Positions 10,564-31,328 of a DNA stretch of 42,088 nt are shown piece after piece (position 1 is the stretch's first letter; the number at the start of each line of letters is the position of its first letter). The notes beneath the pieces are model-generated. The model did not search any database. It saw only the letters and a program-made list of their open reading frames with translations, and had not been told where the DNA came from. This DNA is from an uncultured Eubacteriales bacterium (GTDB lineage: Bacteria; Bacillota; Clostridia; Oscillospirales; Acutalibacteraceae), in NCBI GenBank assembly GCA_900314355.1, contig OMUY01000060.1, positions 1 to 42,088 of the forward strand, given 5' to 3'. The translations under genes and the position numbers were made by a program.

Positions 10564-11643
10564 ATGAGCAGAGCTCAAGGCCAATTCACAATCATTGACT
10601 ACAATGACGCGCTGACGCTGACCGGCTATATCGGCTGCAACCACCCCAAGACGCAGATGTTTAACCCGGACAACAACAGCTACACCCCGAACTGGGCATC
10701 GACCAATCTCGTGCTGACGCCCAGCCTCTATATCATCGGCACCACCACAGATCAGATCACGTCCGAAAACGTGACGATGGTCAAGTGGTATCAGGGCACG
10801 TCCACTACGGCGATTGCCTCGGGCGGCAACTATACGCTCAGCGGAACGAAGAGTCACATCCTGACCGTCAAGGCGAACATCATGGCAGGATTGCCCGGTG
10901 TGGACTTCAAGTGCGAGATTACCTATAGAGACCCCAGCACCGGTCTCACGCTGGTGCATCCGCTCTCGATCTCGTTCTCCCGCGTTGTAAACGGCAGCGG
11001 CATCGTGGATCTTATGGTAATGACGCCAAACGGCAACGTGTTCAAAAACAGCGAGGTCACGTCATTGACTGTAAAGGCAGAGCTGTGGCGCGGCTCGACG
11101 GTGGACACCACAAACGTCACCTACAAATGGGCGATCATGGATGCATCTGTCACGTCCAGCTCGTCCACGGGCTACGATGCAGATTTCGGAACCGGCTGGA
11201 GAAAGCTCAGCAATACCTCGAACATGTACTCCGGCTGCACAACGGCAACGCTGACGATCTACGCAGCGGCGGTCGATAGCTACGCCGTCATTCGCTGCTG
11301 CGCGAAGGACACGGATTCCGCGTCCCCGACCTACAACAGCAAGTTCTATGACGTCTGCACGTTCATCGACAACTCCGACCCGTTGCAGGTCATCGTCTCG
11401 TCCACAGGCGGCGATGTGTTCAAGAACGGTGTCGGCAGCACGGTTCTGACGGCGGTCTGCTATCAGGCTGGCGCAGAAGTCGATGCAGCTGGCACCGGCA
11501 CCTACACGTGGACGAAGTACGATAAGGATGGCAATGTGGATACCGCGTGGGGCACGAACGGCAGCAAAACCGGCAAGACCCTTTCTGTCGGAACGGCAGA
11601 TGTAGATACCAAGGCAACCTTCATGGTGCTGGTCGTCCTCTAA
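10564..11643 (+). CDS. Tail-tip protein with repeated Ig-like domains
   Basis: A 359-residue protein following AGGAGG with 16 bases after the Tal gene. I know no named family for the whole protein. It has an N-terminal beta-rich section of ~145 residues, then two Ig-like domains that start VDLMVMTPNGNVFKNS and LQVIVSSTGGDVFKNG. The second ends with DVDTKATFMVLV. Both match the Ig domain at the end of Tal, with the shared pattern G(N/D)xFKN, a Y-x-W core strand and DVDxxATF. The role is probably structural or glycan-binding at the tail tip. A baseplate or upper-fibre component is the best inference. Confidence 0.7.
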   Translation: MSRAQGQFTIIDYNDALTLTGYIGCNHPKTQMFNPDNNSYTPNWASTNLVLTPSLYIIGTTTDQITSENVTMVKWYQGTSTTAIASGGNYTLSGTKSHILTVKANIMAGLPGVDFKCEITYRDPSTGLTLVHPLSISFSRVVNGSGIVDLMVMTPNGNVFKNSEVTSLTVKAELWRGSTVDTTNVTYKWAIMDASVTSSSSTGYDADFGTGWRKLSNTSNMYSGCTTATLTIYAAAVDSYAVIRCCAKDTDSASPTYNSKFYDVCTFIDNSDPLQVIVSSTGGDVFKNGVGSTVLTAVCYQAGAEVDAAGTGTYTWTKYDKDGNVDTAWGTNGSKTGKTLSVGTADVDTKATFMVLVVL

Positions 11644-17911: not shown

Positions 17912-17964
17912 TTCTTTATGTTCTTTCGAATTTCGGCTGGACTTTCGCAGATTTCTCTGGTACC

Positions 17965-17994
17965 TTTACCCCCGCCTCCGATGGCGGGGGTAAA
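17965..17994. repeat. Perfect 12-bp inverted repeat (GC-rich hairpin)
   Basis: Arms TTTACCCCCGCC and GGCGGGGGTAAA enclose a 6-base TCCGAT loop. The A-run after the right arm gives the minus-strand copy a T-run only on its 5' side, so it is not a textbook terminator on either strand. On the plus strand the arm ends in AAAAAAA. It lies in the 129-base gap between the small gene and the first recombinase, where a serine-integrase attachment site or a transcription end would be expected. Confidence 0.7.
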
Positions 17995-18001
17995 AAAATA
18001 C

Positions 18002-18018
18002 GCTGGTTCGAGTCCAGC
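18002..18018 (+). other. tRNA T-arm-like sequence upstream of recombinase 1 (possible att-site remnant)
   Basis: GCTGG TTCGAGT CCAGC is a perfect 5-bp stem with a canonical TTCRANY T-loop, 23 bases before the first recombinase gene. No acceptor, D or anticodon arm could be found upstream, so this is not an intact tRNA. Mobile elements that insert in tRNA genes carry such 3'-end fragments. A chance hairpin is the alternative. Confidence 0.4.
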
Positions 18019-18040
18019 ACGAAGAAAGGAGAAAGAGCAA

Positions 18041-19507
18041 ATGAGCAAAAAACGTGCGGTCGCATACATACGTGTATCGACAGAAAAAGACGCCCAGCTG
18101 CACAGCTACGACTTCCAAGAACAGTACTGGCGCGGCGTATTCGAGGATGATCCGGAAACCGAGCTCGTCGGTATCTACGCCGACAAAGGAATCAGCGGTC
18201 ATAGCGTGCAAAAGCGCCCGCAGTTCCTTGTCATGATGCAGGACGCAAGGGATCATAAGTTCGATCGCATCTACACAAAATCGGTATCCCGCTTCGCACG
18301 AAACACGACACAGCTGCTGGAGGCGGTCAGAGAGCTTCGAGATATCGGCATCGAAGTGGTGTTCGAAAAGGAGAATATCCACACATTCGAGCCGACCAGC
18401 GAGGTGTTCCTCACGATCGCGGCCACCATTGCAGAGAACGATCTGGATGTGGATTCGGAGCGGATGCGCTGGTCGGTACGACACCGCTTCGAGAACGGAT
18501 GGATCAGCATCGGCAGCGGACTATACGGCCTGCGCCTTACGGCAGATAACGAACTGGAAATCGTACCGGAGGAAGCAGCCGTGATTCGGTACATCTTCGA
18601 TGCCTACGTCAACGGCGGCCTCGGCAGCAAGCGGATCGCGGATGCGCTCAATGAAAGCGGCGTGAAAACGCGCGATGATGGCGCATGGAATGCAAAGCAC
18701 ATCGTCGCCTTGCTCCGGAACGAAAAGTATAAAGGCGATGTGATCATGGGCAAGAGCGTCACTCACTTCGGAGTGCACCGAGATAATACGAACGGCGAAT
18801 TCGCCCCGAGGTACTACATGGAGGACACCCATGAAGCGATCGTCGATAAGCAAACATGGGAAGCAGCGCAGCAGATCTTGGCTGAGCGCGGACGCAACAT
18901 CCCACGGCAGGTGACCTCCCACACCTTCACCAGCATGATCCGGTGCGGATGCTGCGGGACGAACTTCGTACACAAGGTCAATAACAGCAACTTCAAGTGG
19001 CGGACAGACATCTGGGTGTGCGGCAGATCCCTTGCAAAAGGCATCAAGGCCTGTGACAACAGCAGGATCAAAGACGCTGTACTCAAAGAAAAATTCGTCG
19101 ATGCTTATAATGAATTCATAGAACAGCGTCCACATGGCGATTCGCTCATCGCGCTACAGGAAGTGCTCGAAGACCTCAGGCAACAGGAACGGGATCTCGC
19201 CGAGCTCATGATGCAGCGCCTGATCTCAAAGGCGGCATACGATACGGAACGCAGTGAGATCAATGCACGAATCGCGGCCATCAATGAGAAAAACGCAGAT
19301 CGGCGGATCAGAAGAGTCCCGGAAAGCGAGCACCAGCCAATCACAGAATTCAATGCAGAAAAAGCAACACGGTTTCTATCGAAGGTCATTGTGACAAAGT
19401 TCACGGTGACCTTCGTGTTCTATAACGGCGCAAAGATCAGTCGCCGCTACGATAACGGCCAGCCCGGAAAAAAACCCGGCTGGAACAGGAAAAAGGAGGA
19501 TGCGTAA
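18041..19507 (+). CDS. Large serine recombinase 1
   Basis: A 488-residue site-specific recombinase. The start ATG at 18,041 follows AAGAAAGGAG; an in-frame GTG or ATG further upstream would only add low-complexity residues through the hairpin. Residues 1-145 are the resolvase catalytic domain, with nucleophile Ser13 in YIRVSTEKD and the SVSRFARN motif at 81-88. The recombinase DNA-binding domain spans ~160-290, and a Cys4 ribbon follows (Cys302, Cys305, Cys327, Cys338). A coiled-coil-rich region at ~375-430 completes the large-serine-integrase plan. Its stop TAA shares the last base with the next gene's ATG, so the two are translated together. It cuts and rejoins att sites through a Ser-DNA link. 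Confidence 0.92.
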   Translation: MSKKRAVAYIRVSTEKDAQLHSYDFQEQYWRGVFEDDPETELVGIYADKGISGHSVQKRPQFLVMMQDARDHKFDRIYTKSVSRFARNTTQLLEAVRELRDIGIEVVFEKENIHTFEPTSEVFLTIAATIAENDLDVDSERMRWSVRHRFENGWISIGSGLYGLRLTADNELEIVPEEAAVIRYIFDAYVNGGLGSKRIADALNESGVKTRDDGAWNAKHIVALLRNEKYKGDVIMGKSVTHFGVHRDNTNGEFAPRYYMEDTHEAIVDKQTWEAAQQILAERGRNIPRQVTSHTFTSMIRCGCCGTNFVHKVNNSNFKWRTDIWVCGRSLAKGIKACDNSRIKDAVLKEKFVDAYNEFIEQRPHGDSLIALQEVLEDLRQQERDLAELMMQRLISKAAYDTERSEINARIAAINEKNADRRIRRVPESEHQPITEFNAEKATRFLSKVIVTKFTVTFVFYNGAKISRRYDNGQPGKKPGWNRKKEDA

Positions 19508-21129
19508 TGGCAACGGCGACAAGAAGAGTGGTACGCACTATGCCGCAGATGTTCATCGAGACGGTGGACATCGATCAGGGAAAGCTCAAGGTGGCGGCAT
19601 ACGCTCGCGTCTCTACGGAAAAGGAAGAACAGGAAGACAGCTTCGAGCGGCAGGTCGAGCACTACAAGCAGATGATCGCGTCAAAGCCCGATTGGAAATA
19701 CGTGGACATCTATGCAGACCCCGGTATCAGCGGCACCCGAGCAGAGAAAAGGCCGGACTTCCTTCGGATGATCGAAGACTGCCGCGCCGGTAATATTCAG
19801 AAGATACTGGTCAAGTCAATCAGCCGATTCGCCCGAAACACGGTGGACGCGCTCAACTATATCCGCGAACTCAAGGATCTGGGGATCAGCGTCTACTTCG
19901 AAAGCGAGAACATCGACACACTGACGCCCGGTGGCGAAGTGCTGCTGACGATCCTCGCCGCGATGGCGGAACAGGAAAGCAGGACGATCAGCAGCAACAT
20001 CAAGTGGGCATACCAGCGCAAGTTCCAGAACGGGGACATCGTGCTGAACACCGGCCTGATGCTCGGATACCGGAAGGTCGGCAAGGACGATGACGGCCAC
20101 GATGTGTTCGAGATCAATGAAGAGGAAGCGGAAATCGTCAGACGGATCTACAGAGAGTTCATCGCCGGATACTCGATCACCCAGATCGCAAAGCGGCTGA
20201 TGGCGGATGGCATCAAAACAAAGCTTGGAAAGGAAAAGTGGTCTCACAACGTAATCGAGAGCATCCTCACCAATGAGAAATACACCGGAAACGCGCTGCT
20301 CGGGAAAACGTGGAAGCCGGACGTGCTCACCAAATACCGCCAGAAGAACGATGGCAAGAAGGCTCCAATCTACTATGTTGAAGACACGCACCCGGCGATC
20401 ATAGAAAAAGACATGTTCGATCTGGCAAAAAAGGAGCTGGAACGCCGGAGAGGATCAAAAGAACAGGTCGTAGGCGGCGGACGCTTCACCAGCAAATACC
20501 CCTTCAGCGGGCTGGTCGAATGCGGCACATGCGGAGGCAGGCTGCGCAGGCACGTCAGAACGATGGGTACCGGAAAGAAGGTCGCCAGCTGGGGCTGTGC
20601 TACAAGGATCGTAAACGGCAGACAGGCCTGCGACACGCACCACATCAATGAGTCGGTGCTCGAAGCGACTTATCTGGCTGCACTCAGAGATCTGCTGGAT
20701 AACGCATCGGATGTGGTCGAGGCAGTCAAGGAAGGCGCGGAGCTGGCGCTGGAACCGGAGAACCGCGCTGCGATCGAGCGGATCGAGGCTGAGATCGTCG
20801 GCATACAGGAAGCCGTCCTCGAACTGCATCGGGCAAAACAGCGGATGGAAGTCAGCGCGGTGGACTACGCCGCCAAGGTGAAAGAATACAGCGAACAGAT
20901 GAAGGCGAAAGAGGCCGAACGGGATGAACTGCAGGACACGGCGGTCAAATACACGGAAGTCAGGACTTGGCTCGAAACGTTCATGGATCAGATCATGCAG
21001 AGCACCAGCCTCACGAAGGTCGACGGAACGACCATGAAGCTGCTGGTTGAAAAGATCATAGCACGGGATACCGGCATCGAGGTGGTCTTCAAATGCGGGG
21101 TCTCGGTCGAGCACGAATACGTGAAGTAA
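19507..21129 (+). CDS. Large serine recombinase 2
   Basis: A 540-residue paralogue of recombinase 1, starting in a TAATG overlap. Catalytic Ser36 lies in AYARVSTEKEEQ, and SISRFARNTVDALNYI follows at 104-119. The DNA-binding recombinase domain covers ~185-310 with the usual NEKYTGNALLGKTW segment. The Cys4 ribbon uses Cys339, Cys342, Cys364 and Cys375. A long charged coiled coil spans ~405-490, which in large serine integrases controls synapsis and direction. Tandem pairs or triplets of such enzymes occur on some integrative elements, where they act together as hetero-oligomers. Here that is inferred from the overlap, and either enzyme could also act alone. Confidence 0.93.
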   Translation: MATATRRVVRTMPQMFIETVDIDQGKLKVAAYARVSTEKEEQEDSFERQVEHYKQMIASKPDWKYVDIYADPGISGTRAEKRPDFLRMIEDCRAGNIQKILVKSISRFARNTVDALNYIRELKDLGISVYFESENIDTLTPGGEVLLTILAAMAEQESRTISSNIKWAYQRKFQNGDIVLNTGLMLGYRKVGKDDDGHDVFEINEEEAEIVRRIYREFIAGYSITQIAKRLMADGIKTKLGKEKWSHNVIESILTNEKYTGNALLGKTWKPDVLTKYRQKNDGKKAPIYYVEDTHPAIIEKDMFDLAKKELERRRGSKEQVVGGGRFTSKYPFSGLVECGTCGGRLRRHVRTMGTGKKVASWGCATRIVNGRQACDTHHINESVLEATYLAALRDLLDNASDVVEAVKEGAELALEPENRAAIERIEAEIVGIQEAVLELHRAKQRMEVSAVDYAAKVKEYSEQMKAKEAERDELQDTAVKYTEVRTWLETFMDQIMQSTSLTKVDGTTMKLLVEKIIARDTGIEVVFKCGVSVEHEYVK

Positions 21130-21365: not shown

Positions 21366-21677
21366 ATGGACATGAGACCAACTATTGGAACACGGTTGAA
21401 GGAACTGCGACAGAAAAAGAGTCTACGTCAGGAACAGGTTGCTGAGATCATCGGCGTGAACAAAAGCACGATTTCGGCTTATGAGATCGGTGGCAGGCAA
21501 CCCTCCTTTGACATTCTTGTATCGCTCGCAAGATTCTATCACGTAAGCACGGACTACCTTCTCGGACTGACCGACGATCGAAACCTCGATATCTCCGGCC
21601 TGACGGAACACGAAGTAGAGGTGCTGAGTGAGCTGGTAACCATCATCACTGCAAAGAACGAGAGATTGAACGAATAA
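21366..21677 (+). CDS. XRE/cI-type transcriptional regulator
   Basis: A 103-residue DNA-binding protein. Residues 7-61 form an HTH_3 domain: IGTRLKELRQKKSLRQEQVA, then GVNKSTISAYEIGGRQPSFD (recognition helix around residues 37-46), then the frequent ARFYHVSTDYLLGLTD ending. The remaining ~35 residues are helical and may dimerise. There is no peptidase or sensor domain. The ATG at 21,366 has a second ATG two codons later and no strong ribosome-binding site, which suggests low expression. It precedes the ATPase/recombinase 3 genes in the same orientation with a 12-base spacer, so it probably controls that operon, by repression most likely. Confidence 0.88.
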   Translation: MDMRPTIGTRLKELRQKKSLRQEQVAEIIGVNKSTISAYEIGGRQPSFDILVSLARFYHVSTDYLLGLTDDRNLDISGLTEHEVEVLSELVTIITAKNERLNE

Positions 21678-21689
21678 CGGAGATGCGGC

Positions 21690-22691
21690 ATGGATCATAA
21701 AGACGGTTTTCAGTATGAATACTTCTCAGCGGTGACCCAGCACAAGATTGAATGGCTGTGGTATCCATACATACCTTATGGAAAGCTCACCATCCTTCAA
21801 GGCGATCCCGGCGAAGGAAAATCCACATTCATACTGAACATCGCAGCGCTGGTGACACGCGGTAAGTCCATGCCAGACGGATTCCGCATCCGTGAACCAC
21901 AAAGAGTCGTGTATCAATCAGCGGAAGACAACATTGCGGACACGGTGAAGCCCCGGCTTGTCGCTGCCGGGGCTGACTGTGATATGGTCGCCTACATCGT
22001 AGATGAAGACTACCCGCTGACGTTGGAGGACAGCAGGATCGAGCAGGTACTGCAGCAGACCGGCGCACGGCTTTTCATTCTCGATCCGCTGCAGGGATAT
22101 TTGTCGCAGGACTCCGACATGACGAACGCTGGCCGCATGCGAAGCCAGCTCAAAAAGCTGGTGGATATTGCAGCAAAATACCGCTGCGCCGTTGTGATCG
22201 TAGGGCACATGAACAAGTCAAGCCACGAAAAGAATCTGTACCGTGGCCTCGGCAGCATTGACATCGCGGCCATCGCTCGTAGCGTGCTGATGATCTCCCG
22301 CGATAAAGACGACCCTATGATCCGGTACATGTTCCCTGTGAAATCGAGCCTTGCCCCAGAAGGCGCGGTGATCGCTTTTTCTTTCAATCGGGAAAACGGG
22401 ATCCGCTGGCTGGGACAGAAGGAACTCGACAAAAACGTTGTCGAAAGCTGCAACCTTACAGACAGCAAGAAGATGCTTGCGGTACGAATTATTCTGGATG
22501 TTCTCTCCGACCATGATGCTTTGAGCGCTGAGATCATGAAGAAGCTCAAGATTATGGACATATCGGAACGGACGATAAATACAGCAAAGAAGAGTCTCGG
22601 GATCGTTTCTTATCGAAAAGATGGCGTGTGGTACTGGCGGCTTCCCGATGGATTTTATGAGCCGGACTGGAGGGTGAAGAATGGCAAGTGA
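21690..22691 (+). CDS. AAA (RepA/RecA-like, AAA_25) ATPase
   Basis: A 333-residue P-loop ATPase. Walker A is GDPGEGKST (38-46) and Walker B is LFILD (128-132). A GHMNKSS segment and YRGLGSIDIAAIARSVLMI follow, all features of the RepA-like hexameric helicase/ATPase group found in phages, plasmids and integrative elements. The C-terminal ~80 residues look like a winged helix (DISERTINTAKKSLGIVSYR). It could unwind or load proteins on DNA during replication or recombination. The last 11 bases overlap the start of recombinase 3, so the two products are made together. Confidence 0.85.
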   Translation: MDHKDGFQYEYFSAVTQHKIEWLWYPYIPYGKLTILQGDPGEGKSTFILNIAALVTRGKSMPDGFRIREPQRVVYQSAEDNIADTVKPRLVAAGADCDMVAYIVDEDYPLTLEDSRIEQVLQQTGARLFILDPLQGYLSQDSDMTNAGRMRSQLKKLVDIAAKYRCAVVIVGHMNKSSHEKNLYRGLGSIDIAAIARSVLMISRDKDDPMIRYMFPVKSSLAPEGAVIAFSFNRENGIRWLGQKELDKNVVESCNLTDSKKMLAVRIILDVLSDHDALSAEIMKKLKIMDISERTINTAKKSLGIVSYRKDGVWYWRLPDGFYEPDWRVKNGK

Positions 22692-24510
22692 TCAGAGAGA
22701 AGAGCTTCGGCAGCTCTACCAGCGGGAAGAAACAACAGCAGCGCGTTTTATTCCGGCAAAGCCGAAGATTGATATCTACGGCGGCGGCAGGATGTTTCGT
22801 GTTTGCGCCTATTGCCGCGTATCTACGGACAACGATGCGCAGCTGTCTTCATTCGAGCTGCAACAGCAGCATTACCAGCAGCTCGTCGGCAACCACCCGA
22901 ATTGGGACTTAAGGCACATATATGCTGACGAAGGCATCTCCGGCACCTCACTCAAAAAGCGTGATGATTTCAATGCCATGATCGCGGCCTGCGAGCGCGG
23001 CGAATACGATCTCATTGTGACAAAGAGCGTATCGCGTTTTGCCAGAAACCTTGTCGACTGCATTACGCTGGTCAGGAAGCTGAAGCGCCAGAATCCGCCC
23101 GTCGGCGTCTTCTTTGAGACGGACAACCTGAATACACTGTCAGAGGAATCGGAGCTCATGCTGTCATTCCTTGCGACATTCGCACAGGAAGAATCCGTTA
23201 AGAAAAGCGAGAGCATGATTTGGTCGCTGCAGCATCGTTTTAAGAATGGCAAGCTGCTCACACCGGAACTGCTCGGATACTCTCGGCCACGGGACGCAGC
23301 GGGTAATTACATCAAATACGCACGGCTGGAGATCGTCGAGAGCGAGGCGGTCGTCGTCCGCTTCATCTTCGATGCGTTCTTGGCAGGCAAAAGCCCGAAA
23401 GAGATCGCAGCACTGTTGACGGATATTTCGTGCCCGACGAAGACTGGCATGGAACAGTGGAGCGAGGGCTCCATTGGATACATACTCCGCAACGAACGGT
23501 ACTGTGGCAATGTGCTCACATGGAAGACGTTTACGGCGGACATGTTCGAGCATAAGCATAAGCGGAACAATATGGATCGGGATCAGTACCTTTACACGGA
23601 TCACCACGATGCGATTATCTCCGTTGAGACGTTCGAGGCAGCGCAGGTGCTGCTGGCGAACCGGCGTCATCATTACTATGAGGCGCTTCCCACTATGCAG
23701 GTCATCGACGACGGCGTGTTCCGTGGGTACATTCCGATCAATCACCATTGGATCAACGATGACCCGAATGCCTATTTCGAGGCGTCAAAAAGTGTACCGA
23801 ACGGTGGCTTGAAGCGAATCCGAAAGAGCAATTTCAGCGCATTCGATTTCGAAGGCTATCAGGTGGTACGCGGACAGTTCTTAACGACAAGGCCGGAGTG
23901 CCCCTGCGTTACGATCACAAACCATACCATTACATTCAACACCTTCTGCATGCGGAAATTTGCAGACATTCACGATGTTCAGTTATTACTGCACCCGGCG
24001 GAACGCAAGATGGCAATCCGCCCGTGCAGGGAATCCGACATTCACAATATCCGATGGCGGACAGACCCGGACAAACCGTTCACGTCAAAGACGATCAGCT
24101 GTCCGCATTTCGGAACCGCCCTGTACCAGATCATGGATTGGAATCCTGATTATGCGTACAGGATCCGTGGGGCATGGGCTGCGCGTGGCAGAGATGAGAT
24201 CATCGTCTTTACGCTTGCAAACGCCATGCCCGCTGCCTACATGGAGACCGTCGCCGATGACAGCGAAGAGGTCAAACGGCGCAGGGTGGCAATGTGCCCA
24301 GAGGAATGGAATGAGTCATTTGGTGACGATTTCTACGAATACGCGTTGGACAACAGCTTTTTCTTCTTGGCACCGAAGACGGATTGGAAGTCGGATGTGA
24401 AGAGCGTCGCTCCTCCCGGAATACAGCAGTTCCAAGTTAAGACGGAGGAAGAACTGGACATGTCAATAGCGCAAATAATGCAAAAGGATGGTATTCAGAA
24501 AGATGAATGA
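22681..24510 (+). CDS. Large serine recombinase 3 with a non-standard C-terminal module
   Basis: A 609-residue recombinase. Catalytic Ser48 is in YCRVSTDND, SVSRFARNLVDC lies at 116-127, and the recombinase DNA-binding domain at ~190-330 includes NERYCGNVLTWKTF. Where relatives have a Cys4 ribbon and coiled coil, this protein instead has residues ~388-560, a module beginning EGYQVVRGQF, with MAIRPC at 444-449, IRW, ISCP, a WNPDYAYRIRG stretch and, later, CPEEWNESFG. Recombinases 1 and 2 in the same window lack this module. The module is also found, diverged, in the three following small genes. Known serine integrases use the missing region to choose integration versus excision, so the substitution suggests a different control mechanism. 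Function of the module is unknown. Confidence 0.85.
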   Translation: MASDQREELRQLYQREETTAARFIPAKPKIDIYGGGRMFRVCAYCRVSTDNDAQLSSFELQQQHYQQLVGNHPNWDLRHIYADEGISGTSLKKRDDFNAMIAACERGEYDLIVTKSVSRFARNLVDCITLVRKLKRQNPPVGVFFETDNLNTLSEESELMLSFLATFAQEESVKKSESMIWSLQHRFKNGKLLTPELLGYSRPRDAAGNYIKYARLEIVESEAVVVRFIFDAFLAGKSPKEIAALLTDISCPTKTGMEQWSEGSIGYILRNERYCGNVLTWKTFTADMFEHKHKRNNMDRDQYLYTDHHDAIISVETFEAAQVLLANRRHHYYEALPTMQVIDDGVFRGYIPINHHWINDDPNAYFEASKSVPNGGLKRIRKSNFSAFDFEGYQVVRGQFLTTRPECPCVTITNHTITFNTFCMRKFADIHDVQLLLHPAERKMAIRPCRESDIHNIRWRTDPDKPFTSKTISCPHFGTALYQIMDWNPDYAYRIRGAWAARGRDEIIVFTLANAMPAAYMETVADDSEEVKRRRVAMCPEEWNESFGDDFYEYALDNSFFFLAPKTDWKSDVKSVAPPGIQQFQVKTEEELDMSIAQIMQKDGIQKDE

Positions 24511-25096
24511 TAAAGAGCAGTACCTGTTTCAGAACAGCGTTCCGTTAGAAGAGTTGCCGGAGGAAGAAACTGTCGATCTGGCCGGATATCAGGTAACGAA
24601 GGCAGAACTTTTCGCACACTCCAGAGAACCGGCAATCACGATCTGGGAGAACCGGCTGAAATTCAGCATGGCGTGTCTGCGGCGTTTCCCGGGGACAACG
24701 CATATTCAGTTCCTGATCAACCCCGTAGAGAAGAGAATGATCATACGCCCGTGTACCTCTGATACGCCTGACTGCCTGCGCTGGACAAGTGGCGGCGGCG
24801 CGAAAGAGATCAAGACCAGAGACATCATGTGTAAGTTCTTCGCGGCAAAGGTCTTCGATCTGATGGGCTGGGACAAGCAGTACCGGTACAAGATCCTCGG
24901 AAAACCAGCAACATGCGATGGTGAGTTCCTGTTTCTCTTCAAGCTGAACGACTTTGAGCTGTTCGTCGGCGGAAAGAGGAAAGGCTCCTATTTGCCGTCA
25001 GAATGGCGTGATTACTTCGGCGTTCCGGCCAAGGAATACGAAGAGGAATACAAGGTCAATTTGGCTGAAGGCTATATTACAACGGACAAAGTTTAA
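24503..25096 (+). CDS. Unknown protein A, stand-alone copy of the recombinase 3 C-terminal module
   Basis: A 197-residue protein overlapping the end of recombinase 3 by 8 bases. I know no family for it. The ATG at 24,503 was preferred over ATG 24,488 because AAAGGATGG is better spaced. After a 25-residue acidic N-terminus it aligns by eye with recombinase 3 residues 388-560: AGYQV against EGYQV, AITIWENRLKF against VTITNHTITF, MIIRPC against MAIRPC, LRW against IRW, GWDKQYRYKILG against WNPDYAYRIRG, and LPSEWRDYFG against CPEEWNESFG. The full-length match shows that it is a paralogue and not a chance motif. It has no catalytic domain. It may bind the same partner or DNA as the recombinase tail. 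Confidence 0.75.
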   Translation: MNDKEQYLFQNSVPLEELPEEETVDLAGYQVTKAELFAHSREPAITIWENRLKFSMACLRRFPGTTHIQFLINPVEKRMIIRPCTSDTPDCLRWTSGGGAKEIKTRDIMCKFFAAKVFDLMGWDKQYRYKILGKPATCDGEFLFLFKLNDFELFVGGKRKGSYLPSEWRDYFGVPAKEYEEEYKVNLAEGYITTDKV

Positions 25097-25108
25097 TGGG
25101 AGGGCATT

Positions 25109-25552
25109 ATGGAACAATACAACGAAATCAGTATGGACGGCTTCAAAGTCGTCAGCAGCGACTTCTTCTGCACGGTATCGAGAGTGTCCGCGCCGACAAT
25201 CACAATCTGGGACGGCAGCATTGGCTTTTCCAAGCAAGACCTTATTCTACTGAACAGCTGCGAAAATGTGCTGCTGCAGATCAACGCGGCGGATAAGAAA
25301 ATCCTCGTTGTGCCTACGACATCGAAGGATAAAGATGCTATCCGCTGGGTGAAGAAAACAAACCCGCTCGAAGCAAAGAAATTCAGCTGTCCGAAGTTGA
25401 CAGACACCCTGTATGAAGCGTGGGGATGGGACAAGGACTATGTCTATCGCTGTACAGGACGACTTGTCACGGTGGCAAACAAGGTCATGCTGTTTTTCGA
25501 CTTCGCCGAGCCTGAAAAATGGAAACGACCGGAGGCCAAAAATGCAAAGTGA
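25109..25552 (+). CDS. Unknown protein B, second stand-alone module copy
   Basis: A 147-residue protein with GGGAGGG 6 bases before its ATG. It keeps the order of landmarks of the recombinase 3 module: GFKVV near residue 11, PTITIWDGSIGF, a VLLQINAADKKILVVP pair of strands, IRW at 78-80, KKFSCP, GWDKDYVYRCTG, and a hydrophobic MLFFDF strand. It lacks the later PxEW-type end seen in protein A. The predicted secondary structure is beta-strand-rich with one helix before the Trp. It overlaps the following gene by 11 bases. Function unknown; a paralogue in an expanded accessory set. Confidence 0.72.
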   Translation: MEQYNEISMDGFKVVSSDFFCTVSRVSAPTITIWDGSIGFSKQDLILLNSCENVLLQINAADKKILVVPTTSKDKDAIRWVKKTNPLEAKKFSCPKLTDTLYEAWGWDKDYVYRCTGRLVTVANKVMLFFDFAEPEKWKRPEAKNAK

Positions 25553-25904
25553 GACATACATATCATTCTACCTGTCGACATCCAGAATACACATCTTTCG
25601 GAGCACGCTGAGAGACATCGGCAATCTGAAATTCATTCGGTTTCTTGTGAAGGAAGACGGTCAGTCTATGATCATGGAGGCCTATCACAAAAAGGATTTC
25701 CGCTCACACCGAGTGCCAAAGCCAACTGACAATAAGGAATGGAAGATGGAAGTACGCAGCCTGCCGCTTTGTACTTTGTTGCAAAACAAGCTGAACTGGA
25801 TGGATGGCCGGTCGTATCGAATACCGGGTAAGGTGTATCCGCAACAGCGGCTCGCGGTGTTTGATCTTTCAGCAGCGGAACAAATCCAGCAAGCAGGCTC
25901 GTGA
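25542..25904 (+). CDS. Unknown protein C, shortest and most diverged module copy
   Basis: A 120-residue basic protein whose ATG at 25,542 lies inside the end of gene B, with GGAGGCC 6-8 bases upstream. It lacks the GYQV start but keeps the core order: SRIHIFRSTLRD (cf. ITIW...F), IRFLVKEDGQSMIMEAY (cf. IQFLINPVEKRMIIRP), WKMEVRSLPLCTLL (cf. ISCP.....LY), WMDGRSYRIPG (cf. W...Y.YRI.G) and LAVFDLS. Similarity is visible only when all four copies are placed side by side, so homology is likely but not proven. Function unknown. Confidence 0.62.
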   Translation: MQSETYISFYLSTSRIHIFRSTLRDIGNLKFIRFLVKEDGQSMIMEAYHKKDFRSHRVPKPTDNKEWKMEVRSLPLCTLLQNKLNWMDGRSYRIPGKVYPQQRLAVFDLSAAEQIQQAGS

Positions 25905-26283: not shown

Positions 26284-26504
26284 GAACGCAAATCATAAAG
26301 AACGCAGTCAGGTGTAACTTTTGCGGCGATGTGATCGAAAGCACATATCGCCATGACTACGTGACCTGCAGATGTGGCCGCGTCTCCGTCGACGGTGGCC
26401 ACGATTATCTCCGCAGGTGTTTTGCCAGCCCGGATGCATTCACCGAGCTATCAGTCACCAAGGCGGTGGAGAACACCAATCCGAAGGAGGAAGATCAAGA
26501 ATGA
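26238..26504 (+). CDS. DUF7695-like zinc-ribbon protein
   Basis: A protein of up to 88 residues. The only available in-frame start upstream of the conserved part is GTG at 26,238, preceded by AGAGGAAG; the conserved core begins near IIKNAVRCNFCGD (residues ~20-32). CNFCGD and CRCGR form a Cys4 ribbon, followed by VSVDGGHDYLRRCF. That VDGGHDYLRR stretch and the small size match the DUF7695 family as I remember it. Function is unknown. It ends in a 4-base ATGA overlap with the RNA ligase, so the two are translationally coupled and may work together. Confidence 0.68.
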   Translation: MEKAERDGRIPRQKVRTQIIKNAVRCNFCGDVIESTYRHDYVTCRCGRVSVDGGHDYLRRCFASPDAFTELSVTKAVENTNPKEEDQE

Positions 26505-27544
26505 GGAAACTCGCAAGCATACAGCGCGTATGGAAGATTGAACCGATCGAAGGTGCAGACCGGATCGAGCTGGCGCATGTGCTCGGCTGGCAGTGCGTCG
26601 TGAACAAGGGACAGTTCAAGCCGATGGACGTCGCGGTCTATTTTGAGATCGACAGCTTCCTGCCGATCCGCGATGTGTTTGAATTCATGCGTGCGTCCAG
26701 CTATAAGAAGACCGACATCATGGGTGAAGGCTTCCGCCTGCGCACAATGCGTTTCCGTGGGCAGATTTCGCAGGGGCTCCTGCTACCGGTGGACAGATTC
26801 CCTGAGATCCCGGAGAACGCAGATGTCGGTGAAGATGTGACGGAGCTGCTGCAGGTGCGCAAGTGGGAAATCGAGGAACGCGTCACCACGGGCGGGACGG
26901 TCATTGGTACTCTCCCTTATGACATCCCACACACAGACGAAACACGGGTGCAGGAAGAGCCGGATCTGATCAAGGCGTTCGCTGGGCTGGAATACTATAT
27001 CAGTACGAAGATGGACGGCTCGTCTCATTCCATCGGGATCGACGAAAACGGCTTCCATGTCACTGGTCATAACTATGAATACAAAGATGACGGCAGCAGC
27101 GCCTTCTACGAGCTCGTAAAAGCACGTGGATATCAGGCCAAGATGGAGGAATACGTGAAGGCGCTTGGTCTCAAGACGCTCACGATTCAAGGAGAGCTTT
27201 GTGCGCCGGGTATACAGCAGAACCGCCTGCGTCTGGCAAGGCCGGAGTGGTATGTATTTACCGTCCGAGAGAACGGCAAACGCGTTGGTCTGAATCGCAT
27301 GCTCCAGATTTGTGAGGCACTCGGTATGACACCCGTTCCCATCGAAGAGGTGGACTCCGATCTTCCCAGCAAGTATCCTACGGTGGAGGCGCTGCTGGAA
27401 CGTGCAGACGGCAATTATCCGAACGGCGGAAAGAAGGAAGGCATCGTGGTACGCCCCACGGAGCCGGTGTTCTGCCCGCTGATCAGCGCAAGCCTTTCTA
27501 TGAAGATCGTGAGCAATAAGTATCTGCTGAAAAACGAAACATAA
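26501..27544 (+). CDS. ATP-dependent RNA ligase, Rnl5/DraRnl-like
   Basis: A 347-residue nucleotidyltransferase that seals breaks in RNA. Residues ~1-125 form an OB-type N-terminal domain (MRKLASIQRVWKIEPIEGAD, then WQCVVNKGQF), the mark of the Deinococcus Rnl5 type. The ligase core follows: motif I is STKMDGSS with probable adenylated Lys170, then GELCAPGIQQNRL, motif IV EGIVVRP, and motif V SMKIVSNKYL near the C-terminus. Members of this family join 3'-OH RNA ends on a duplex. On a phage-like element it may repair tRNA or mRNA cut by host defence nucleases; this is inference. It is the last gene of the operon, with a terminator 11 bases after the stop. Confidence 0.87.
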   Translation: MRKLASIQRVWKIEPIEGADRIELAHVLGWQCVVNKGQFKPMDVAVYFEIDSFLPIRDVFEFMRASSYKKTDIMGEGFRLRTMRFRGQISQGLLLPVDRFPEIPENADVGEDVTELLQVRKWEIEERVTTGGTVIGTLPYDIPHTDETRVQEEPDLIKAFAGLEYYISTKMDGSSHSIGIDENGFHVTGHNYEYKDDGSSAFYELVKARGYQAKMEEYVKALGLKTLTIQGELCAPGIQQNRLRLARPEWYVFTVRENGKRVGLNRMLQICEALGMTPVPIEEVDSDLPSKYPTVEALLERADGNYPNGGKKEGIVVRPTEPVFCPLISASLSMKIVSNKYLLKNET

Positions 27545-28588: not shown

Positions 28589-28612
28589 GCAACCCCGGCT
28601 TGCTGTGGACAC

Positions 28613-28662
28613 ATGTACCTTTTAGGTAGTTTTACCTCGGATATGTACCTTTTGGGTAGTCT
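28613..28662. repeat. Cluster of TACCT/AGGTA half-sites (two 20-bp direct repeats, 30 bp apart)
   Basis: ATGTACCTTTTAGGTAGTTT (28,613) and ATGTACCTTTTGGGTAGTCT (28,643) start exactly 30 bp apart. The first contains the palindrome TACCT-TTT-AGGTA and a further TACCT lies between them at 28,633. Such phased half-sites fit binding of a dimeric or multimeric protein, for example at an attachment site or an operator. They lie 25 bases after the flavodoxin stop and close to the drop in GC content. Confidence 0.65.
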
Positions 28663-28667
28663 TTCAC

Positions 28668-28699
28668 AAAAAACACTGCGGTTTGCAGTGTTTTTTTTT
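28668..28699. terminator. Strong bidirectional terminator
   Basis: AAAAAACACTGC and GCAGTGTTTTTT form a perfect 12-bp stem around GGTTT, with a nine-T run after it on the plus strand and a six-T run on the minus strand. It ends flavodoxin transcription. Confidence 0.88.
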
Positions 28700-29243
28700 G
28701 CCTAAAAATCGGGTTTTTCGCTGCGTGCTTTTATTTGTCTGAACTCGGCGGATTCATGATTGCTCACATTTTATCACGATAAACCTAAAGTAATATGACC
28801 GGAATTGTGAACCGGCAACTGGCGTATGTCTGTTGATCGTCATAATAAATAATAAAAGTATTTGCAGAGGTATCAAAACGACTAATTTAGTCACGTTATT
28901 ATTCTCTTAACAGTTTTATTACTGCGCTCGGCAACTCGGAATTCTTAACCACAATGGGCTATTTTTTGAAATGTAAAAGAATCTAATCGAAAATTTTTAA
29001 AGTCGGCAAAAGCCGCGTATTAAAATACGTTATTCGGGGAAAAATGCGCGACGCCGGTTTCAGCATTATAAATTACCGAAAATAATATTTCAATATGTTT
29101 TTGAATCAAAAATATAGTTGATTAAAAAATTAATAAATTTTTTGTGTATTTAATCGTAAATTTTGACAATATTATTTGAAATACCTATTTGTAAGTGCTA
29201 TAATAAATAAATAAGACAAAATTTTTGAAAGGCGGAATATAAG
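28700..29243. other. AT-rich intergenic region between the element and the first chromosomal gene
   Basis: No coding frame of useful size. GC content falls here, with long A/T runs from ~28,960. Small matching segments such as GCATTATAAATTACCG look random. The promoter of the sugar transporter lies at its right end. I see no tRNA or insertion-sequence remnant. If the mobile element ends in this window, the junction should lie here or in the repeat cluster just upstream. Confidence 0.6.
29176..29204 (+). promoter_or_regulatory. Sigma-A-type promoter for GPH transporter 1
   Basis: TTGAAA at 29,176-29,181, a 17-base spacer, and TATAAT at 29,199-29,204. The TTGACA a little upstream (29,164) is too far from the -10 box. 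The transcript leader would be about 30 bases. Confidence 0.83.
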
Positions 29244-30791
29244 ATGAAAAACGACAAACCCGTATATGCCGACGGGAAGCTCTGCCGTCAGGATATGATA
29301 TTGTTCCCGATAGGAACCATAGGCAGGGACGCCGCGTGCGCGGGTCTTTTTATGAATCAGCTTTTGAATTACGTTTATTTCACGAAAAAACTGACTAACG
29401 CCCAGATGACGGCTATTACCGTTTTGATGGCGGCGGCTAAAATTTTCGATGCGTTAAACGACCTTGTCATGGGCAACATAGTCGACGCTACAAAGTCTAA
29501 GTGGGGAAAATTCAAGCCGTGGATTTTCCTCGGAATGATAGGCTCGTCAATAGTTGTTGTGGCGTCGTTTTCAAATACGCTTCAGGGCTGGTCTTACGTC
29601 GCGTTTTTCGGTATTCTTTATTTCGCATTTTCCATTGTTTTTACGATGAACGACATCGGCTACTGGTCTATGGTTCCGTCGTTGGCAAGAGATCCGTCGG
29701 ACAGAGATAAACTTTCGTCGAGGACGGCTTTCTGCGCCAATATCGGCGGCGGTCTCAACGGAATACTTGTTCCGATACTGACTACAGGCGAGCTTGCTAT
29801 AGGCGGCTCGGCTGTCGCGTCGTACAGATATCTTTCAATTATTTTTGTCGCTATATTTATGTTTTTTCAGATGATTATGCTTATTGGCACTAAAGAGGAT
29901 TATTCTCTTTACTCGGAGAAAAAGCAGAATATATCTGTAAAATATATTTTGAATATATTTAAGACAAACGATCAGCTCAGATGGATTGCGGTCGCTTTCT
30001 GCCTGACTCAGATGGCGCCTACCGCGTGCACTTCGATGTATGTATATTTCCAGTTCGGATACAACGGAACGTTGAATACTCTGTTCGGCTGTTTCGGCGG
30101 TCTTGCGACAGTCATAATCAATATTTTCTATCCGAAATTTGCCGAAAAACATTCAAGACTTCAGCTCCTCAGGCTTTCTGCGTATTTCTCTCTTCTCGGC
30201 AATTTGTTGATTGTGCTTTTCGGCGTTTTCTATCCAGCCGGCGGCGCGTCTATAGTCATACCGTTTTTCAACGCGGAGATAACAATGCAGTATCTTCTCG
30301 AGGTACTGTCGAATTTCTTCGTGGGATTTGCGAACACGATGTTTTACATGATAATGATGATTTCAATTTCCAATACGGCTGAATACAACGAATACCTTAC
30401 CGGCGTCAGAAATGAGGGAATTATATTTTCTACGAGAACATTTCTTACGAAGTTCGGCAGCGCGGTAAATACTCTTGTAGTTATGCTTTTCTATGTTATT
30501 ATTGGAATAAATTCTACGACTAACCAGATTTCCGATCTCGAACAGCAGGCAAATATGGGGCTTATCTCCGGAGAAGAAAAGCTTTCCAAAATCAAAACGA
30601 TAATTTCAAATGTGCCCGAGTCGAAAACGATTTCACTTCTTCTGCTTTTCACCGTCGCGACAGGTCTTCTGTATTATGGAGCTTATTTGGTTTACAAAAA
30701 GAAATATAAAATCTCAGAAGATTACTACAAAAATATGACGGCAGAGCTTGAAAAAAGAAGAGAGCTTAGAAAAATCGATGAAGAGGCGTAA
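29244..30791 (+). CDS. GPH-family sugar:cation symporter 1 (MFS)
   Basis: A 515-residue membrane transporter of the glycoside-pentoside-hexuronide group, which takes up sugars or glycosides with Na+ or H+. About 12 hydrophobic segments can be counted. The signature after helix 2 is VDATKSKWGKFKPWIFLG (~residues 83-100), and the second conserved region SMVPSLARDPSDRDKLSSR follows at ~142-160. The ATG follows GAAAGGCGG. The basic, charged C-terminal tail is cytoplasmic. It is a single-gene unit with its own promoter and a shared terminator facing the fucU operon. Substrate is not predictable; the nearby mutarotase suggests a hexose or deoxyhexose. Confidence 0.88.
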   Translation: MKNDKPVYADGKLCRQDMILFPIGTIGRDAACAGLFMNQLLNYVYFTKKLTNAQMTAITVLMAAAKIFDALNDLVMGNIVDATKSKWGKFKPWIFLGMIGSSIVVVASFSNTLQGWSYVAFFGILYFAFSIVFTMNDIGYWSMVPSLARDPSDRDKLSSRTAFCANIGGGLNGILVPILTTGELAIGGSAVASYRYLSIIFVAIFMFFQMIMLIGTKEDYSLYSEKKQNISVKYILNIFKTNDQLRWIAVAFCLTQMAPTACTSMYVYFQFGYNGTLNTLFGCFGGLATVIINIFYPKFAEKHSRLQLLRLSAYFSLLGNLLIVLFGVFYPAGGASIVIPFFNAEITMQYLLEVLSNFFVGFANTMFYMIMMISISNTAEYNEYLTGVRNEGIIFSTRTFLTKFGSAVNTLVVMLFYVIIGINSTTNQISDLEQQANMGLISGEEKLSKIKTIISNVPESKTISLLLLFTVATGLLYYGAYLVYKKKYKISEDYYKNMTAELEKRRELRKIDEEA

Positions 30792-30849
30792 TTATGCCAA
30801 AATTATCGTCTGCCGATAGAGGATAATTATTGTATTATTTAAAAAATTT

Positions 30850-30886
30850 CCCCCGGAAGTTAAATTTTCCGGGGGGGGGTTCGTTT
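30850..30886. terminator. Shared terminator between converging units
   Basis: CCCCCGGAA (30,850-30,858) pairs with TTCCGGGGG (30,867-30,875), with T-rich sequence following on the plus strand (30,884 on) and AAAAAATTT before the left arm, giving a T-run on the minus strand. It can end both the transporter and the fucU transcripts. Confidence 0.8.
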
Positions 30887-30893
30887 TTTTATT

Positions 30894-31328
30894 TTACGGC
30901 TTTACAACGCCTTTTCTGAGGATGATATTCGCGTATACTGCCGTTTCGCCGGATGAAACTACCGCGAACGCGTTTCTCGCCTTTTCGTAAAAGTCGAATC
31001 TTTCCACCTGTTCTATTTTAGAGCCGGGCTCGTATTTTTCTATTATTTCCCTGTATTTCGACCATATTTCGGGATCGGGACCGCCGGCGTCGGGCCCTGA
31101 AAGAGCCATAAGCTTTACCGGTGCGTCGCCGTACGGGTCGAGAGGTATCAGTTTAAGCACGGCGTCAAGAATTTCCGGAACGGTATTTCCGTCGAGACGC
31201 ACAAGCCTTTTCGCGTTAGCCGCGGCTGGAAAATTGCCGTCGCCTATAACAATGGAATCGCCGTGTCCCATTTCGTCAAGTATTTTTAAAAGTTCGGGGG
31301 TGATTATCGGCGGTATGTTTTTTAGCAT
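30894..31328 (-). CDS. RbsD/FucU-type sugar mutarotase
   Basis: A 144-residue enzyme that interconverts ring forms of free sugars, as L-fucose mutarotase does. The N-terminus MLKNIPPIITPELLKILDEM leads to the catalytic-His motif MGHGD (His22) and GDGNFPA, the clearest family marks. The C-terminal half has RNAFAVVSSGETAVYANIILRKGV, also typical of FucU. The start ATG follows directly on the histidine kinase stop (TAAATG), so the gene is the third of a response regulator-kinase-mutarotase operon. That arrangement suggests that the two-component system senses or reacts to sugar. Confidence 0.88.
   Translation of the reverse strand: MLKNIPPIITPELLKILDEMGHGDSIVIGDGNFPAAANAKRLVRLDGNTVPEILDAVLKLIPLDPYGDAPVKLMALSGPDAGGPDPEIWSKYREIIEKYEPGSKIEQVERFDFYEKARNAFAVVSSGETAVYANIILRKGVVKP

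Follow-up and report, generated by a model that had tools for sequence, protein, structure and literature searches.

A large serine recombinase without a zinc ribbon and stand-alone copies of its C-terminal module in a clostridial prophage

Elements with several serine recombinases

Mobile elements with three serine recombinases are already known, as are serine integrases without the zinc ribbon domain PF13408 (PMC4260502, PMC4701971). In streptococcal integrative and conjugative elements (ICEs), serine integrases form triplets classed by position as external, middle or internal, and PF13408 is found in all but 10 of the 42 serine integrases of that study (PMC4701971). We analysed a stretch of 42 088 nucleotides from an uncultured Eubacteriales bacterium (assembly GCA_900314355.1, contig OMUY01000060.1, positions 1 to 42 088), hereafter the window, which contains a prophage. 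Like the streptococcal triplets, three serine recombinases are present in this one element. Two of them, Rec1 and Rec2, have the zinc ribbon. The third, Rec3, has none, and the place of ribbon and coiled coil is occupied by a module repeated in the three small proteins encoded next to it, A, B and C.

The element phi1207.3 (Tn1207.3) of Streptococcus pyogenes resembles the window in several respects. It carries three serine recombinases, of which two are ribbon-bearing and lie beside lysis genes and one, Orf2 (370 amino acids), is ribbonless (PMC4260502, PMC9927172). It integrates in comEC; its ribbonless recombinase and the ribbon-bearing pair lie at opposite ends, and Orf56 and Orf57 have been suggested to do the recombination (PMC4260502). 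The gene comEC is also the one that is split in the complete clostridial chromosome G450, discussed below. The neighbour of Orf2, Orf3, belongs to the module family; the record lists it as a hypothetical protein. However, phi1207.3 differs from the window in that the module exists only as this separate protein of 138 amino acids, and there is no A or B.

The gin element likewise combines three serine recombinases, GirA, GirB and GirC, with a directionality factor, GirX; there, GirC and GirX do the rearrangement, GirA and GirB are dispensable, and the text drawn on here makes no mention of a module (PMC5595907). The phiC31 integrase Int, with its factor gp3 (PMC5814800), and the SPbeta integrase, with its recombination directionality factor (titles of Protein Data Bank (PDB) entries), have catalytic and recombinase domains like those of Rec3. 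Integrases of this type differ from Rec3 in that Rec3 is without the ribbon and that Rec3 and its partners A to C have one domain in common. To our knowledge, no directionality factor described so far is a paralogue of a domain in the integrase that it serves. Searches of the open-access PMC literature turned up no account of this module family, its free copies or how its split and fused forms are related.

Rec3 and its lack of a zinc ribbon

The recombinases and module proteins of the window are listed here by position and strand.

17918..19507, + strand: Rec1, large serine recombinase with zinc ribbon (PF00239, PF07508, PF13408 with E 1e-9)
19507..21129, + strand: Rec2, large serine recombinase with zinc ribbon (PF00239, PF07508, PF13408 with E 7e-13)
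22681..24510, + strand: Rec3, ribbonless serine recombinase with C-terminal module (PF00239, PF07508; no PF13408)
23713..23751, + strand: Rec3 residues 345-357, GVFRGYIPINHHW, where Rec1 and Rec2 have the first ribbon Cys pair (Cys absent when the segments are set side by side)
23830..24366, + strand: Rec3 residues 384-562, the internal module, with homology to A, B and C
24503..25096, + strand: protein A, stand-alone module, 8-base overlap with Rec3 (profile and pairwise homology)
25109..25552, + strand: protein B, stand-alone module of the window-type clade, 12-base gap after A (pairwise and profile homology)
25542..25904, + strand: protein C, stand-alone module of the C/M branch (see below), 11-base overlap with B (homology by profile only)

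A preliminary description of this DNA had read Rec3, A, B and C as open reading frames (ORFs) at these coordinates, and all four are confirmed. It had also claimed that Rec3 lacks the ribbon of the other two recombinases, which agrees with the domain assignments: Rec3 matches the Resolvase domain PF00239 (E 1e-26) and the Recombinase domain PF07508 (E 8e-23), whereas PF13408, matched in Rec1 and Rec2, is not matched in Rec3 in the same Pfam search. The ribbon segments of Rec1 and Rec2 start with Cys pairs; the equivalent segment of Rec3, GVFRGYIPINHHW, has no such pair and may be a remnant of the ribbon.

The lack of a ribbon extends to the homologues of Rec3 (called R3 below). The motif C-x-x-C is found in residues 271-380 of none of 153 R3 proteins, whereas a ribbon-like Cys pattern is present in 40 of the 43 other large recombinases in our tree and absent from three. 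As to the coiled coil, the AlphaFold2 model of Rec3 has no long helical hairpin beyond residue 330, the longest later helix being 589-607, as judged from the model alone. The catalytic motif of Rec3 is intact (YCRVST with Ser48), and Y-x-R-V-S-T is present in 149 of the 153 R3; among the four others, three are cut by the contig end and one (L094) has no motif. Rec3 is best read as a catalytically competent large serine recombinase.

The module shared by Rec3, A, B and C

Local alignment gives z-scores of 34 for the R3 module against A, 24 for the R3 module against B and 24 for A against B, and for each of these pairs none of 1000 residue shuffles scores as high. C is not detectable in this way within the window: its z-scores are 3.3, 1.8 and 0.5 against the R3 module, A and B, and 12, 60 and 284 of 1000 shuffles, respectively, score as high. 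The family profile of C, on the other hand, is clearly related to the three others in hhalign (E 1.6e-21 with the R3 module, 2.4e-19 with A and 2.5e-22 with B). In control comparisons, no module set reaches an E better than 0.019 with the catalytic domain, and 50 column shuffles for each of the six pairs give a probability of at most 10.5%. The strict B and C profile sets share two rows (L131 and L135), which are better counted as C-position proteins. The module that the preliminary description had recognized in Rec3 and the next three genes is thus borne out, by shuffles for A and B and by profiles for C. By these alignments and profiles we regard the R3 module, A, B and C as homologous and A to C as true paralogues.

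The module has a size of about 115-170 residues and, by profile comparison, no internal duplication. Sequence libraries were searched with a set of 71 rows (35 R3 modules, 35 A and one B, with no C). Pfam gave only matches of single members (best E 0.006), NCBIfam gave no match up to 0.01, and PHROGs gave at best one family without stated function, matched by four of the 71 members (best E 0.0037). The profile of this set matched no PDB sequence up to E 10. For C of the window alone, there is no family below E 0.05 in Pfam, NCBIfam or PHROGs.

AlphaFold2 models A with a mean pLDDT of 75.7 and Rec3 with 83.5; residues 411-520 of Rec3 reach 90-96 in blocks of ten. Unrelated folds, which the preliminary description had named as an outcome contrary to its reading, are not what these two models present. 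A and the Rec3 module share one main order: first short strands and a short helix, then two long strands, another helix and long strands. In Rec3, an additional short strand precedes the second helix and further strands follow that helix. In Foldseek, no solved structure matches the model of A with E below 0.001, and all 18 matches of the whole of Rec3 below 0.001 are serine recombinases. In a library of viral structures, the single match below E 0.001 is an uncharacterised Erwinia phage protein, and further matches (E 0.002-0.02) are proteins without named function. The predicted fold is alpha/beta and has no name.

Two candidate folds were rejected. For a sliding clamp, Foldseek ranks DnaN and PCNA chains high for A, but the best match has E 0.014, probability 0.16 and TM 0.11, and among the matches listed the probability is 0.16 or less and TM 0.09-0.16; by profile (hhalign), all modules together score 19.0 against 28 DnaN proteins, and the best of 40 shuffled column sets scores 27.5. 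The strand-helix pattern also suggested an AbrB/SpoVT domain. The hhalign scores of the four module sets against 25 such proteins (10.8-16.9) are not above those of shuffles, the best of 40 shuffled column sets reaching 16.9.

Split forms and phylogeny of the module

In the phage PV036413 (L012), a recombinase of 404 amino acids, matching PF00239 and PF07508 only, stops where the module would start, and the next gene encodes a stand-alone module protein of 155 amino acids, named M. Such a split pair, a ribbonless recombinase of 370-415 amino acids followed by M, is found in L012, L222 (phi1207.3, where it is formed by Orf2 and Orf3), L224, L225, L226 and L288. None of these six recombinases matches PF13408. 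L287 has an interrupted recombinase frame; YS771 (L223) has no recombinase any more and keeps a shortened module protein among resistance genes.

A quick recombinase tree of 80 rows, made without bootstrap, has a branch with an SH-aLRT value of 99 that parts the 43 other large recombinases from all the ribbonless ones, fused and split; the 43 are counted without the L012 recombinase, which had entered two groups. The module tree comprises 81 modules and 133 columns, and support is good for 40 of its 78 inner branches; the row L019_B_7253 carries the label B but is an R3 module fragment. It is divided with 100/100 support into C and M on one side and the R3 module, A and B on the other, and C is nearest to M.

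By its position in this tree, C is a separate old branch and not a decayed copy. This modifies the preliminary description, which had seen increasing divergence and loss of ends along the three genes: B and C are indeed shorter than A, and C is beyond pairwise detection, but decay does not describe C. The simplest history would begin with a ribbonless recombinase and one free partner (M, equivalent to C), to which the fused copy, A and, in the clade of the window, B were added.

Conservation of the Rec3-A-B-C operon

Scans seeded with A supplied 80 of 125 confirmed loci in genome contigs and 80 of 119 in viral contigs, near copies included. Together with five annotated phage or plasmid loci and the window, there are 166 loci with an A homologue. 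Of the phage records that match, the analysis covers 5 of 21 for A and 6 of 26 for M. One plasmid record matched A, and M had no match in 72 556 plasmids. Three rows (L028, L030 and L128) were left out of the 96 non-redundant rows when A was aligned.

A module-bearing recombinase lies within 1.2 kb upstream of A in 153 of the 166 loci; nine others are cut by a contig end and four (L019, L039, L062 and L084) are without it. This is in line with the expectation of the preliminary description that homologues of A occur mostly beside such a recombinase, although solitary relatives of C exist. In L019 and L062 there is a module fragment upstream and no catalytic ORF. The A ORF of L039 (7548-8351, 268 amino acids) scores with both the recombinase and the A-module profiles, and may be a recombinase-A fusion or an assembly fault.

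The order R3-A is kept. Taken from its first in-frame start codon, A begins at a median of -8 bases from the R3 stop and shares bases with R3 in 131 of 152 loci (L001, a copy of the window, not counted). In the window itself an in-frame ATG at 24488, upstream of 24503, is a possible alternative start of A. Downstream of A, conservation depends on the type: with the window included, a C-type protein follows in 149 of 165 loci, six of the 16 misses being cut there, and a B-type protein in only 46 of 165. In L009, L011 and L319 there are two genes of about 291-324 amino acids after C; the farther one is DUF6551 (PF20188, E 2e-31, 1e-25 and 3e-30, respectively), and the nearer one has no convincing Pfam match.

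A survey of 391 genomes of the class, searched by module profile, does not build on the A loci. It gave a module match in nine genomes, the window's own included. Six of them carry seven recombinase-fused modules, and an A-type match adjoins all seven. In the other three (G260, G397 and G417), the matches are short M/C-like proteins alone, at four places (L201-L204). The locus L204 (G260) is cut by the contig end and has a recombinase ORF about 4.4 kb off; of the proteins at the remaining three places, one was seen by eye to lie close to a phage lysis gene.

In the window, the operon is preceded on the same strand by two further genes.

21366..21677, + strand: Cro/CI-type helix-turn-helix protein, probable repressor (HTH_3, E 6e-17)
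21690..22691, + strand: RecA/RepA-like ATPase (AAA_25, E 5e-27), 11-base overlap with the start of Rec3

Homologues of the ATPase also lie upstream of Rec3 in L002, L004 and L013. In the run from the helix-turn-helix gene to C, the last five genes overlap or nearly touch, and co-translation is therefore likely.

A probable non-catalytic resolvase copy upstream of Rec3 at some loci

At 22 of the 153 loci, a small resolvase-like gene (190-279 amino acids) is found at most 400 bases upstream of Rec3, and in 20 of the 22 it overlaps the Rec3 start. Loci with such a gene include L065, L082, L083, L085, L091, L092, L152, L157, L158, L162 and L165. The catalytic serine motif is replaced by YIRYFN or YIRYYN in 17 of the 22; in L152 it was recognised by eye, and the copies of that locus (L153, L155 and L156) do not differ from it where they were compared; L076 has no motif. 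The upstream protein probably repeats the other half of the enzyme in non-catalytic form, which would fit a system of interchangeable parts.

Three recombinases per phage and their integration sites

There are three PF07508 recombinases in nine of ten annotated phage records and two in the tenth (YS771), and PF13408 falls in two recombinases of each record; the window likewise has two ribbon recombinases and one without. Eight of the ten records are labelled Ca. Heliusvirales, a name that we take to denote the same group as Ca. Heliusviridae, found in 190 of the 196 people of one cohort (PMC9226167). The words recombinase, integrase, resolvase and invertase do not occur in the main text of that paper (PMC9226167).

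The chromosome G450 (L044) carries the ribbon pair about 52 kb from the Rec3 operon in the same insert. Its comEC is split by about 64 kb into an N-terminal part (6217798-6219882) and a C-terminal part (6283908-6284144). Beside the N-terminal part are the Rec3-A-C operon, a DUF6551 gene and a gene that has no Pfam match; the two zinc-ribbon recombinases (6277444-6280577) lie 3.3 kb from the C-terminal part. As read at its two ends, the 64-kb insert may consist of two elements side by side. Between its junctions there are only repeats of 7-8 bases, none convincing as an att core. Since G450 and phi1207.3 both have the ribbonless recombinase and the pair at opposite ends, the attP of the circle would lie between them. 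This layout is not general: all three recombinases are at one place in, for example, L050, L067 and L070.

Another target is suggested by L046 and L047, from Coprococcus and Blautia. Their near-identical prophage stretches end sharply at about position 11611, inside a gene for a T2SSE-type (CpaF-like) ATPase that covers only part of the Pfam profile. This truncated-looking gene is a possible integration target.

Role of the module and alternative explanations

On balance, the evidence leans towards a model in which the module replaces ribbon and coiled coil and A to C are subunits of a Rec3 complex. A new alpha/beta module would have taken the place of these two elements in Rec3 and, in cis or in trans, would work with the recombinase in one protein-DNA complex, where it may supply part of the att-site contact and a gate on synapsis. 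A, B and C would be co-translated subunits of this complex. Having a fold in common with the module of Rec3, they could sit beside it or replace it, and the choice of att sites for synapsis may depend on the subunit mix. Rec1 and Rec2 would form the second part of one integration system; where they are oppositely oriented, at least, they would be transcribed separately. The strongest argument for this model is the pattern of fusion and fission: because the module is found both fused to the recombinase and split from it, a working partnership of the two can be argued. The mostly basic character of the stand-alone copies (counts below) is a further point in its favour.

The preliminary description had gone further and proposed a new control system, in which stand-alone copies pair with or compete for the module of the recombinase and set direction or target choice. 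Of this reading, the place of the module, the paralogy and the gene order are supported, and the split forms point to a working partnership; that A to C pair with or compete for the module of Rec3 is a hypothesis, and their control of direction or target a plausible one. The three-recombinase setting, for its part, had already been described for phi1207.3 (PMC4260502). We put forward more tentatively a new control principle, in which the synapsis-gating domain exists as interchangeable parts, one fused and up to three free, the mix of free copies in the complex deciding if the recombinase works and on which att sites. If true, some relatives would have free non-catalytic copies of both halves of the enzyme, the serine-less catalytic copy being encoded just upstream. 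Serine integrases are standard tools of genome engineering, and the control of their direction is still being worked out. A ribbonless recombinase that has its missing part both in cis and in trans would allow the role of this part to be studied by mixing proteins, and the unannotated Orf3 of phi1207.3 gains a testable role.

Several observations weigh against the partner model. Its weakest link is that the family, profile and structure searches named no relative of the module, either structural or functional. The proportion of 153 loci in 166 is biased upward, because the loci were gathered by A-type queries and include near copies. There are 393-792 bases between R3 and A in five of 152 loci, and the C-type protein is missing from 10 loci that are not cut there. 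Among the 52 loci with wide flanks, 33 have no other large serine recombinase in the fetched stretch. Of the solitary M-like proteins, those in L201 and L202 have no recombinase in stretches of 11-12 kb, and L203 has only recombinase fragments about 4.8 kb off; the module can thus exist without a recombinase, and the tie is not absolute. Finally, A and the Rec3 module of the window are acidic (pI 5.8 and 5.4), as is M in L012 and L226 (pI 6.4 and 5.0), so that simple DNA binding is not favoured.

A first alternative is that A to C and M are sequence-specific, architectural DNA binders of the excisionase type, which bend or block DNA beside att without contacting Rec3, the domain of Rec3 likewise serving only to bind DNA. 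We consider this unlikely, while noting that the module occupies the place of the DNA-binding zinc ribbon of other serine recombinases, that solitary copies occur and that most of the stand-alone copies are basic, with a pI above 7 in 84 of 88 rows of A, 49 of 49 of B and 140 of 152 of C. Among the modules of Rec3, however, only 38 of 82 rows are basic, and the existence of fused and neighbouring forms favours contact or a common site.

It is less probable still that A to C regulate transcription of the recombination or lysogeny operon, with the fused copy coupling recombination to its own regulation. They are small, mostly basic proteins with a repressor gene nearby, and in the Heliusvirales phages they lie upstream of the gene without Pfam match and the DUF6551 gene. 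This explanation leaves the fusion to the catalytic subunit unaccounted for, and no DNA-binding fold is recognised, AbrB-type profile scores being about equal to those of shuffled columns.

There is a small chance that Rec3 and the modules serve another rearrangement, for example an inversion switch inside the phage, and not prophage integration. The ribbon pair alone could integrate, as suggested for phi1207.3 (PMC4260502), and Rec3 also matches the DNA invertase family PHROG 125; against this, the Rec3 operon lies beside the split comEC in G450, and no invertible segment was noticed, without a systematic search for one.

That A to C are functionless, decaying tandem duplicates of the Rec3 module is very improbable: the shortness of B and C relative to A, and the failure to recognise C pairwise in the window, speak for it, but the three types cluster apart and are kept across divergent phages, and C combines its wide retention after A with its nearness to M.

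The right end of the prophage

The G+C content of the window falls at about 28.5-29 kb, which is likely to be the end of the prophage. The flank 28600-31300 was compared with 60 genomes, that of the window included; no empty site was found, and short partial matches occur in 20 of the 59 other genomes. Near this right end, at 26372-27544, there is a gene for an RNA ligase (PF09414, E 2e-13; PHA02142 OB-fold domain, E 3e-35).

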